This document shows positions 46,065 to 49,140 of a DNA stretch of 64,000 nt, piece after piece. Where the stretch lies: assembly GCF_003269425.1 (NCBI RefSeq), contig NZ_CP030104.1:1793501-1857500 (forward strand), in the 5' to 3' direction. Under the pieces are notes generated by a model, which ran no database searches, was not told the origin of the DNA, and saw nothing but the letters and a program-made list of their open reading frames with translations. This stretch comes from Flagellimonas maritima (GTDB lineage: Bacteria > Bacteroidota > Bacteroidia > Flavobacteriales > Flavobacteriaceae). Positions within the stretch are counted from its first letter, which is position 1, and each line of letters begins with the position of its first letter. The position numbers were made by a program, and so were the translations under genes.

Positions 46065-47090
46065 CTATTCGGTATACTCTTTTACGGCATCAATAAAAGC
46101 TCTTGCATTTTCGACAGGTATATGAGGAAGGATGCCATGACCCAAATTCACCACATATTTGTCCTTACCAAATTCACGAATCATTTGATCGACCATTTTT
46201 TTGATGGTTTCTGGTGGGGAAAGTAATCGTGCAGGATCAAAATTGCCTTGCAGTGTTATATTTCCTCCCGTTAAATATCTAGCATTTTGTGCGGAACAAG
46301 TCCAATCAACACCCAATGCCGATGCACCTGATTGTGCCATTTCTTTTAGCGCAAACCAGCAACCTTTTCCAAAAACGATGACGGGTGCATCATCTTTAAG
46401 CGCATCTACGATTTGCTGAATATATTGAAAGGAAAATTCTTGATAATCCACTGGCGATAACATTCCTCCCCAAGAATCAAAAACCTGAACGGCATTTACA
46501 CCCGCTCTTACCTTAGCTTTTAAATAAGCAATTGTAGTGTCCGTAATTTTTTGAAGTAGTTGATGAGCAGCTTCTGGTTGGGTAAAACAAAATCCGCGGG
46601 CCTTATCGAAACTTTTACTTCCCTGCCCTTCTACGCAATAACAAAGTATGGTCCATGGTGAGCCTGCAAAACCAATCAATGGAATTTCATCTTGCAACTT
46701 TTCTTTGGTCATTGTAATCGCATTCAAAACGTATCCCAATGATTCTTCAATATTTGGAATGATGACCCTATCTAAATCTTTTGGAGATTTAATGGGATTT
46801 GGTAAATAAGGACCAAAGTTAGGTTTCATCTCTACCTCAATATTCATGGCTTGCGGAATAACCAAAATATCACTGAAGAGTATGGCTGCATCCATTCCAT
46901 ACCGGCGAATGGGCTGGACAGTTATTTCCGAAGCCAATTCTGGAGTCTGGCATCGGGTAAAGAAATCGTATTTTGCTTTCAATTCCATAAATTCAGGAAG
47001 ATATCGTCCAGCTTGGCGCATCATCCAAACGGGGGGTCTATCTACAATTTCACCTTTTAGAGCTCTTAGGAACAGGTCATTTTTAATCAT
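46065..47090 (-). CDS. hemE: Uroporphyrinogen decarboxylase
   Basis: Removes four carboxyls from uroporphyrinogen III to give coproporphyrinogen III. 341 residues with the N-terminal signature [30 protein letters not shown] (catalytic Asp), [10 protein letters not shown], and the C-terminal GNFDPARLL and [18 protein letters not shown]. Overlaps the end of hemD by 8 bases. Confidence 0.96.
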
Positions 47091-48192
47091 GTTTCTTAAA
47101 ATATTTTATAGCTTGAACCAACAAATTTTCTATTGTTGGCTTGTTGGCAATTATAATTTGATCCGTATACTTTTTAGCTTCAGTGGCAGTGGTATTGCCA
47201 ATACAGAAAGCCAAGCTTTTTGAGATACTATTTTCTTGTATGTAACTTTTTATACCACTTGGACTAAAAAAAAGGATGCCATTAAATACGCGATCAAATC
47301 TTCTTGGAATCAAATGGGTTTTATAAATCTTAACTTCTGTATACCGAACATTATTTTTTGATAGGATATTAGGCAATTCTTCTCTTCTTAAGTTCCCACA
47401 TAAGAACAAAAACTTCTCATTTTGATGTTTTTTAATAATAAAATCACCTAAATCCAAGGCATTTTCAGTAGTAGCAATAATTTTTAACCCATTTTCTTCC
47501 AATACTGCTTTGGTCTTTTCACCGACGCAAAAAGCATTGCATTCGGACATGTCCAGTTTTTTAGAATACTTCAAAAAGGCTTTTACGGCATTTTTACTGG
47601 TGAAAATATAATTTTGAAAATTATTGGGGATAGGTACATCCAAAAATTCAATATCCAATGCATTATATTCCACCAAACCCAGTCCAGAATGGAGAAATAA
47701 TTCTTTTTGTGAGGGGGAAAGTATTTTAGTGGAGAGCACTGTTATACTGCTCCCTCTACTTAAGGTGAGGGATGGGGTGAGGTGTTTTTTCGTGTTCTCG
47801 CTATGTTTTTTTAAATGTTCTTTACGTTCACTAGCGTAGGATTCTTGTTTTTCTTTGGCAGCTATAATATACTGAAATACGATATCAACATTTTCAAAAA
47901 CCATTCTATTCTCAAAACGTAAAATTTTATAGCCTAAGCTTTGTAAGTGAATGTCCCTCCTTCTGTCCTTTTCAGCTTGATTTATTTGTTTGTGATACTC
48001 GCCATCCAATTCAATTATTATTCCATATTCAACACAAAAGAAATCTACAATATAACTTTTTATTGGGTGTTGTCTTCTAAATTTCAGATTTTTAAGTTTA
48101 CGATTTCGAAGGTGGCTCCAAAGCTTTTTTTCAGCCTTAGTTTGATTTTTGCGTAATAATCTTGCTATTTGAATTTTATTGTTCATCCCCAC
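47083..48192 (-). CDS. hemD: DUF559 endonuclease-like domain fused to uroporphyrinogen-III synthase
   Basis: Two unrelated parts in one 369-residue frame. Residues ~1-110 are a complete DUF559 domain (Vsr/restriction-endonuclease fold): [33 protein letters not shown] with Asp 50, [10 protein letters not shown] with Glu 61 and Asp 63, and GYKILRFEN. Residues ~120-149 ([10 protein letters not shown] to TLSRGSS) are a linker encoded by the element's terminal repeat. From ~150 the HemD synthase begins ([56 protein letters not shown]), closing the tetrapyrrole ring with D-ring inversion. The listed start is GTG at 48192; ATG at 48186 is more likely. The original hemD start was probably the GTG at 47739, still available for internal initiation. 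Confidence 0.85.
47746..47749. repeat. Target-site duplication, hemD side
   Basis: ACTG on the plus strand (CAGT in gene sense) directly abuts the left end of the DUF559 element and matches the copy at 48221-48224. Confidence 0.55.
47750..47782. repeat. Left terminal inverted repeat of the DUF559 element
   Basis: CTCCCTCTAC-TTAA-GGTGAGGG followed by ATGGGGTGAGG. The internal palindrome is weaker than in the right copy. Confidence 0.65.
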
Positions 48193-48220
48193 TCCCTAAC
48201 CCTCTCCCCCGGGAGAGGGA
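48187..48220. repeat. Right terminal inverted repeat of the DUF559 element
   Basis: CCCCACTCCCTAACCCTCTC followed by CCCCGGGAGAGGGA; contains the palindrome CCCTCTCCC-CCGGGAGAGGG, which encodes the last residues of HemC and its TAG stop. Confidence 0.7.
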
Positions 48221-49140
48221 ACTGTTTCTTGATTATTTCTAATAGCTTTCATTAGTCTATCTCCGCCCATTTCCAATAGCTCTTTGGCACAAGCCTTTCC
48301 AAAACCACTTGAATCGGTTAAGTCACTACTTTTCTTAATTGCAACCTTTTGTTTGCCATCCAAGGAAAAAACTGATCCTTCAAAATAAATCGATTGATTT
48401 TTTATTTGTGCTAAAGCTCCGATGGGAGCAGTACAACCGCCCTCAAGTGTTCTTAAAAAATCACGTTCAATTGCAGTTGTTATCTCAGAATCCTGATGAT
48501 TAAGCTTATGTGAGGCCTCCTTTGAAAACGCATCTTTCTCCAGGGCCACTACCAACATTGCTCCTTGAGCGGGCGCGGGTATCATCCAGTCCAGTTCTAA
48601 AGCATCTTTGGGCAATAGTTTAATGCGTTCCAATCCAGCCTGTGCAAAAATGGCCCCTTGCCAATCATTTTCGATAAGTTTTAAAATTCTCGAATTTACG
48701 TTGCCCCTCAAATCCACTATGTTATGATGCGGATATTTATGCAACCATTGTGCTTTTCTCCGTAAGCTACCTGTGGCAATGGTAGCTATGTTTTCAGATT
48801 CTAGAAAATCCAATCCTTTGTGAACCAGAATATCATTGGTTACGGCACGTTCCAAAACTGCGGTTTGTACAATGCCTTTCGGCAATTGTGTAGGGACGTC
48901 CTTCATGGAATGTACCGCAATATCTATTTGACCTTTTAGTAGTGCAACATCCAACGTCTTGGTGAAGATTCCTGTAATCCCTAGTTCGTAGAGTGGTTTG
49001 TCCAAGATCTGATCCCCTGTTGATTTTATTGGAATCAAAGTCGTATCATGCCCTAATGCTTCCAGTTTTTGCTGTACTGTGGTCGCTTGCCACAACGCCA
49101 ATTCGCTATCGCGGGTTCCGATTCGTATGATTTTGCTCAT
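48196..49140 (-). CDS. hemC: Hydroxymethylbilane synthase (porphobilinogen deaminase)
   Basis: Polymerises four porphobilinogens into hydroxymethylbilane. 314 residues with IRIGTRDSELALWQATTVQQ, SMKDVPTQLPKG, TGSLRRKAQW, APAQGAMLVVALE and the dipyrromethane-cofactor Cys in LEGGCTAPIGA. The last residues, PSPGGEG, are encoded by the DUF559 element; the ancestral end was most likely ...NNQETV. The tail is short and unlikely to harm the enzyme. Overlaps the hemA stop by 4 bases (ATGA). Confidence 0.95.
   Translation of the reverse strand: MSKIIRIGTRDSELALWQATTVQQKLEALGHDTTLIPIKSTGDQILDKPLYELGITGIFTKTLDVALLKGQIDIAVHSMKDVPTQLPKGIVQTAVLERAVTNDILVHKGLDFLESENIATIATGSLRRKAQWLHKYPHHNIVDLRGNVNSRILKLIENDWQGAIFAQAGLERIKLLPKDALELDWMIPAPAQGAMLVVALEKDAFSKEASHKLNHQDSEITTAIERDFLRTLEGGCTAPIGALAQIKNQSIYFEGSVFSLDGKQKVAIKKSSDLTDSSGFGKACAKELLEMGGDRLMKAIRNNQETVPSPGGEG
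48221..48224. repeat. Target-site duplication, hemC side
   Basis: ACTG on the plus strand (CAGT in gene sense) directly abuts the right end of the DUF559 element. Confidence 0.55.

Follow-up and report, generated by a model that had tools for sequence, protein, structure and literature searches.

The stretch of DNA analysed here, 64 kb from the single 3.77-Mb contig of Flagellimonas maritima (G000:C1:1793501-1857500; G000 denotes this genome and "the window" the whole 64-kb stretch), carries between the genes hemC and hemD an element made of one DUF559 nuclease domain bounded by two inverted repeats (Table 1). A preliminary description of the locus held in part, both in what it observed and in how this was interpreted: the block with its inverted terminal repeats and its DUF559 domain is real, but it had been portrayed as a self-contained open frame lying cleanly between two genes. 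Lacking its own stop, the DUF559 frame continues through the hemD-side repeat into HemD, while hemC runs into the element and ends inside the repeat on its own side. The same uninterrupted DUF559-HemD frame is found in G021, G042 and G140.

Each end repeat consists of a palindrome and a G-rich tail, the tails pointing inward. The score of the hemC-side hairpin is reached by only one of 2558 windows of 50 nt (step 25, over the 64 kb), namely its own, and a genome-wide scan of G000 for one strict hairpin returned the hemC/hemD element as the single place. The hemD-side hairpin is weak, with a 4-GC stem whose score is matched or exceeded in 74 of the 2558 windows. By eye, both ends are relatives of a published triplex motif (see below), the hemC-side hairpin with its tail TTAGGGAGTGGGG among them, and neither passed the motif scan at 3 substitutions. 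The Rfam family whalefall-1 gave a sub-threshold match on the hemC-side repeat (window 48185-48221, reverse strand, 19.1 bits, E 0.16) and may be a related repeat. A stand-alone DUF559 copy of G000 (L003 1300-2100) has longer similar stretches on both sides and, judged by eye, a different arrangement of its ends.

Table 1. Features of the hemC/hemD locus, in window positions
Feature	Position	Strand	Remark
Whole DUF559 element, hairpin to hairpin	47752..48220	-	469 nt, between hemC and hemD
hemC	48196..49140	-	frame enters the element; stop inside the hemC-side repeat
AAACAGT	48221..48227	-	decayed left copy of the duplicated hemC/hemD overlap
hemC-side hairpin TCCCTCTCCCGGGGGAGAGGG	48200..48220	-	top GC hairpin of the 64-kb window
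G-rich tail of the hemC-side repeat, TTAGGGAGTGGGG	48187..48199	-	points inward
DUF559 nuclease domain	47860..48177	-	PF04480, 124 bits; genome 1841360-1841677
DUF559-HemD open frame	47083..48192	-	369 aa, no stop between
Tail of the hemD-side repeat, CCTCACCCCAT	47772..47782	-	translated as part of the protein
hemD-side hairpin CCCTCACCTTAAGTAGAGGG	47752..47771	-	weak stem
CAGTATAACAGTG	47737..47749	-	right-hand copy of the overlap duplication; hemD has lost its native ATG
Native HemD portion of the fusion	47083..47739	-	

The hemC loci of the genus (n = 30, own genome included) reveal the empty allele, whose existence in relatives had been anticipated: 26 lack the insert and have overlapping hemC and hemD, with a junction like ...AAATGAAAACAGTGCTCTCCACTAAA, three are occupied (G000, G021 and G042) and the junction of G030 was unreadable. 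Removal of the block together with one CAGT had been thought to restore the old junction; the relatives show the overlapping arrangement instead. In G021 the 24-bp overlap, AAAACAGTGCTATCCACTAAAATA, is exactly duplicated on both sides of the element, and because of this duplication both hemC and hemD keep their ends. The left copy is partly decayed in G042 and reduced to AAACAGT in the window; in the right-hand copy of G042 the native ATG of hemD is gone and GTG is gone too, so that the nearest route to HemD would be the fusion. As first noted, CAGT occurs on either side of the window's element; these letters are probably the remnant of the decayed overlap duplication. A 4-bp target duplication at hemC/hemD is ruled out by the 26 empty loci and the 24-bp duplication of G021. 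A tree of hemC with 900 nt upstream pairs G021 with G042 as sisters and places G000 with the empty G034 (100/99).

The nuclease and its hairpin ends

In an alignment of 27 diverse copies, ten columns are invariant (E21, W25, Q41, D50, F51, E61, D63, G64, H67 and D76), including E, D, E-x-D and H residues that we take to play the catalytic roles of the EDxHD active site. For the window's domain, modelled with AlphaFold2 (pLDDT 92.9), the best fold match was 3hrl, an endonuclease-like protein of Neisseria, followed by the catalytic domain of the homing endonuclease I-Bth0305I (3r3p; Foldseek E 8.5e-5, prob 1.00; sequence profile E 1.5e-6), with E. coli Vsr lower. Judged from this model the fold is that of a Vsr/EDxHD-type nuclease, and fold and active-site residues alike place the domain with the EDxHD homing endonucleases. 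PADLOC returned weak matches, one of them to a model named "homing endonuclease" (E 0.0008), as did PHROGs, with families named HNH endonuclease and homing endonuclease. Inside foreign proteins pN of the nuclease lies well below pS (nonsynonymous and synonymous differences, respectively), a codon-level pattern which indicates that the nuclease is under purifying selection within its hosts.

The association of domain and palindromes extends well beyond the window, and other copies share its architecture, as expected if DUF559 and its repeats behave as a unit. C-rich/G-rich hairpins within 150-180 nt of the domain are far in excess of same-locus controls for fused (n = 82) and stand-alone copies (n = 71), in 246 and 213 pairs (Mann-Whitney p 1.9e-27 and 1.8e-19; 6.2e-19 and 5.2e-30), 4 of the 157 copies having been dropped for short flanks and upstream windows of 180 nt having been set against 150-nt controls. 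Among 24 genomes of the genus, the pattern CCCCTCTN2-12AGAGGGG occurs at 13 places, 12 of which, compared by eye, lie no more than 310 bp from a DUF559 match (the exception is G016:C6:34711). Nine such hairpins, several in inverted pairs 41-78 bp apart, were seen in G054, for which no DUF559 match is listed; these are possibly nuclease-less derivatives.

Orphan intrastrand-triplex repeats (TM/PIT) have been reported in over 260 bacterial genomes, among them E. coli, where their authors describe no association with transposons, phages or plasmids and explain them as a source of instability; the main text of that paper contains no words starting with "DUF" or "endonuclease" (PMC4666352). The E. 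coli motif TM_ECO (earlier called PIT elements) is a hairpin followed by a G-rich tail, scanned here as CCCTCNCCC N3-6 GGGNGAGGG N3 GGGNGAGGG with at most 3 substitutions. The same motif stands within 300 bp of DUF559 in 51 of 101 loci that were fetched across phyla by the DUF559 peptide alone (80 genomic, 21 viral), on both sides in 32, with a density 51 times that of the remaining parts of these loci. In the Bacteroidota set it was found at 17 of 157 domains (7 on both sides), at 24 times the density. In E. coli MG1655, motif 9 of the published list (1351205-1351239; Table 1 of PMC4666352) is 168 bp away from ycjD, whose annotation is that of a DUF559 protein. The ycjD stretch is at least 80% covered in 3333 of the 5375 E. 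coli genomes with a match, and the lack of any PF04480 match in the E. coli genome that was one of our 14 controls would fit an absence of ycjD from part of the species. Two E. coli genomes without ycjD behind fabI (L435-L438, fabI-ycjD-sapF) carry there a regulator and an RND efflux operon, so that they are uninformative on precise excision, and E. coli was discarded as an empty-site test.

Host proteins

Searches with the PF04480 profile gave matches in 106 of 196 relatives and in 198 of 345 genomes of the phylum, counts that take in weak partial matches (20-31 bits), many of them apparently to a separate Vsr-like protein. Many of the copies sit within long open frames. We scanned 30 of these frames from the Bacteroidota set with Pfam, and 10 of them also with NCBIfam. 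DUF559 is found in frame, inside or at the end of the host, in MetH, LeuRS (two sites), RecG, RnpA, HemD, HemF and RNase HI, as well as in HisF, HisD, chorismate synthase (AroC), a GATase_5 protein that is probably PurL-like, UvrD-like helicases, IcmF, N-formylglutamate amidohydrolase and an M23 peptidase. Restriction-modification proteins also serve as hosts (HsdR, HsdM, type ISP, MmeI-like, N6/N4-methylase and Eco57I-type proteins), and in 4 of the 30 scanned frames no host domain was found (L267, L297, L298 and L324). A peptide-pattern scan of named genomes confirmed at least 572 relatives, the best 80 of which come from Chloroflexi, Proteobacteria, Planctomycetes, Cyanobacteria, Bacteroidetes and others. 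Frames longer than 230 aa occur in 30 of these 80, and a host domain was found in 22 of the 28 scanned (L377 and L399 left out), adding ValRS, PriA, MetG, RimM, HsdS, a radical-SAM protein and riboflavin synthase, with its two lumazine-binding domains, to the hosts. By hand count from the Pfam and NCBIfam tables, the hosts amount to about 28 families in total.

The peptides at the joins are largely translated repeats, and many insertion sites lie next to conserved stretches, such as EVFTTRPDTIFG in LeuRS, LVMTATPIPRTL in RecG and HTQGSGKS in HsdR. Among 157 deduplicated domains, 74 are stand-alone, 79 fused (59 internal, 16 N-terminal and 4 C-terminal) and 4 unclassified, numbers that give no measure of prevalence because long frames were fetched on purpose. 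In five congeners (G001, G007, G034, G041 and G045) the only LeuRS found, with one match each, carries DUF559, as does the sole MetH of G000. A SAM riboswitch lies upstream of this DUF559-bearing metH (L069 961-1099). DUF559 also occurs in 21 viral contigs of IMG/VR (L414-L434), many of them 6-9 kb long and several with an adjacent hairpin, TCCGCCCCC..GGGGGCGGA.

In 58 proteins that are fused or have long frames, Pfam (E limits 1e-4 or 1e-8) gave no family of the Hint/intein type. Intron searches with Rfam came back empty, both for 9 loci at gathering scores and, at E 1, for the window region; the insert, a single open frame, does not fall into an intron class. I-Bth0305I and DUF559 share the nuclease fold and a detectable kinship in sequence, and EDxHD homing endonucleases resemble DUF559 in being site-bound and transferred between species. 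The two differ in setting: I-Bth0305I is listed in the PDB as a "Mobile intron protein", whereas the DUF559 elements of this sample showed neither intron nor intein nor added domain. I-Bth0305I has a long multi-domain DNA-binding build (PMC3943268), whereas DUF559 is a single domain kept in the frame of the host protein. A cyanobacterial DUF559 gene has already been filed under EDxHD, in a section on inteins (PMC9403480). As in the present case, a homing-type gene is fused in frame to a host gene in fungal mitochondrial rps3 carrying LAGLIDADG (PMC7902536). The latter involves another nuclease family, an organelle and one host gene, in contrast to the many host families counted here. LAGLIDADG-rps3 fusions duplicate host sequence and are not known to have palindromic ends. 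The Rickettsia palindromic elements offer a likeness of behaviour, being palindromic DNA kept in frame in many unrelated genes, as is observed here, although they measure about 150 bp (PMC10969869) and the window's element 469 nt. Within the open literature, represented mostly by listings, we met no link of DUF559 to flanking repeats or to in-frame insertion.

Occupancy, loss and age of the inserts

Occupancy within the genus, read from open-frame lengths and PF04480 matches (a few frames end at contig ends), amounts to 6/69 for recG, 5/69 for leuS, 9/71 for rnpA and 2/70 for metH, among genomes in which the respective gene was found, and to 3/47 for hemC/hemD. The leuS tree, built from 23 genomes after the recG-occupied G086 had been dropped, puts G001, G012, G047 and G095/G018, all with an occupied recG, in four places among relatives whose recG is empty. 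Six recG alleles without the nuclease were examined; five are clean and one, in G022, retains in frame a scar from the right end of the element. Upstream of rnpA (L198-L224), several nuclease-less congeners keep leaders such as TPLKSPQGD, and G005, G007 and G094 have pieces resembling the nuclease C-terminus in front of RnpA; going by their sequence, these leaders and pieces are best read as fossil inserts, the remnants of in-frame loss.

Synonymous differences give the relative age of inserts and flanks, with bootstraps that covered RecG, LeuRS and three of the four HsdR loci. For the six recG inserts, 6 of 15 pairs are significantly younger than 500 flanking codons (e.g. 0.17 vs 0.66 in G012-G018 and 0.18 vs 0.76 in G086-G018); for the five leuS inserts, 6 of 10 pairs are younger than their flanks (0.23-0.39 vs 0.55-0.70); and one of three hsdR pairs is so too (G079-G089, 0.04 vs 0.31). 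The RnpA pair G095-G101 is apparently young (0.09 vs 0.27, without bootstrap). At recG, identity rises at the left hairpin and falls at the right one, with edges within about 30 nt. A nuclease tree of the Bacteroidota set (115 columns) groups the copies mostly by host site across genera, with supported clades for RecG (100/98), the LeuRS CP1 site (100/98) and HemD (100/98), and MetH inserts group across families and classes in a clade (99/86) of 11 MetH rows and one M23 row.

RecG and LeuRS combine empty and occupied alleles at one site with a spread faster than that of the host lineage, which is the behaviour of homing elements; as read from these sequences, the pattern at both genes amounts to homing without splicing. 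The homing-like, palindrome-associated life suggested at the outset fits this transfer as well as the hairpin ends and the triplex motif.

Interpretation and alternatives

The window contains a single hairpin-bounded DUF559 element, and we consider it quite probable that its family behaves as homing elements lacking a splicing device. The element consists of one Vsr/EDxHD-type nuclease domain flanked by two palindromes that are inverted to each other and have G-rich tails; copies of the family keep to fixed sites of conserved genes, in loops, in linkers between domains or at protein ends. Their reading frame permits the host protein to be made as one polypeptide with the nuclease inside; the repeats seem to have few stops in most frames, as judged by eye, so that the host protein would stay open, and the host enzyme would presumably function with the insert still in place. 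From occupied alleles the element would pass into the empty alleles that other species have of the same gene: the nuclease, made within or beside the host enzyme, is predicted to cut or nick the empty allele when both share a cell, and repair would copy the hairpin-bounded cassette into the cut allele. Loss would leave repeat-coded linkers, and a gene not occupied before may be colonised through breaks close to C-rich sequence that is similar to the repeat tail.

Several observations weigh against this proposal. Across the sites we found neither a consistent target duplication nor a common target motif; the boundaries of other copies agree in their hairpin ends and not in the 4-bp duplication foreseen for them, and the recG and metH junctions are ambiguous because target and repeat tail are both C-rich. 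The insert does not differ significantly from its flanks in 9 of 15 recG and 4 of 10 leuS pairs, and in two of the three HsdR pairs (L092, L094 and L095) it is more diverged than they are. Neither HemD (insert pS 0.52-0.66 vs 0.58-0.74 for hemD) nor MetH, whose pS is mostly saturated (the locus L081, lacking an anchor, was left out), bears a signal of recent transfer, and the spread seen at RecG and LeuRS was not seen at these genes; the mobility of the window's own copy is therefore argued from its kin, and its arrival by homing is what we would infer from them. In the nuclease tree, HsdR inserts occupy two places and UvrD inserts likewise, an M23 insert stands inside the MetH clade, and stand-alone copies occur among the RnpA inserts. 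Finally, the LeuRS editing-domain loop (L135-L164) accepts unrelated palindromic inserts, so that shared sites in part reflect tolerance rather than targeting.

The loop itself is a hot spot for coding repeats: other in-frame inserts resembling translated palindromes, such as LDAERSRSD, SSAVEKS, AERLPAGQAGS and ELKTQNS, occur in many of the 30 congeneric loci.

Among the alternatives, the one that survives best, unlikely as we judge it, makes DUF559 a passenger: the hairpins would be REP/MITE ends moved by RAYT or by general recombination, with the nuclease uninvolved. Palindrome-flanked RAYT genes are known, each a DNA-processing gene between palindromes as in the DUF559 element, and intragenic REPs exist, many of them in replication and repair genes (PMC3733652). 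The palindromic LeuRS inserts without a nuclease and the hairpins of G054 are also in keeping with such a passenger. RAYTs, however, are HUH Y1 transposases with GTAG-tagged REPs (PMC3733652), whereas the DUF559 element has another repeat and another enzyme and, having no Y1 HUH transposase, does not belong with the REPtrons (RAYT). Of 59 relatives, 12 do have Y1_Tnp matches, the occupied G001, G013, G021 and G034 being among these, but there is none in G000, G012, G018 or G054, and 47 of the 59 genomes lack them. That 12 of the 13 CCCCTCT..AGAGGGG hairpins lie close to DUF559, and that the nuclease is under purifying selection inside foreign proteins, also argue against a mere passenger.

Less probable again is that the copies are ancient domain fusions, inherited vertically with many losses and no longer mobile. 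The recG scar of G022, the rnpA remnants and the MetH and HemD copies devoid of recent transfer would be expected from such a history. It is contradicted at RecG and LeuRS, where, as in one HsdR pair, the inserts are several times younger than their flanks; the edges of the young RecG tract lie near the hairpins, and five of the six examined empty recG alleles are unscarred.

We give little credence to the idea that DUF559 is a Vsr-like repair or restriction nuclease whose flanking hairpins are terminators or regulatory elements, in spite of a Caulobacter DUF559 protein, VsrA, that is tied to cytosine methylation and DNA damage (PMC12907096), the several restriction-modification hosts, and the CCCTCTCCC palindromes of Enterobacter sp. 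638 that were interpreted as terminators (PMC2869309). It would leave unexplained the in-frame copies in MetH, LeuRS, ValRS, MetG, AroC, RimM and HisD as well as the transfer between species without flanks, and terminators within open frames would make no sense. A transposon-like element with a CAGT target duplication is very improbable in spite of the CAGT letters on both sides, since the relatives' empty allele differs, the most intact footprint is the 24-bp overlap duplication and the empty-site boundaries lack the expected signature.

Returning to the proposal of homing without splicing, we suggest more tentatively, and with slightly more doubt than conviction, that DUF559 elements form a mobile class of their own, characterised by non-splicing, in-frame homing in essential genes and by triplex-palindrome ends, and constituting the source of the orphan TM/PIT repeats. 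If so, solitary triplex repeats would be scars or nuclease-less derivatives of DUF559 elements, and repeat-coded linkers in host proteins, such as LPLGEGLGEG, would be their fossils. A G/C-rich triplex repeat without a known carrier would thereby obtain a likely source. The homing reading gives a widespread nuclease family of "unknown function" a likely and testable lifestyle. The family would show how a homing gene can persist in essential genes with neither intron nor intein, by staying in the protein, and the domain boundaries of many annotated enzymes would become suspect.

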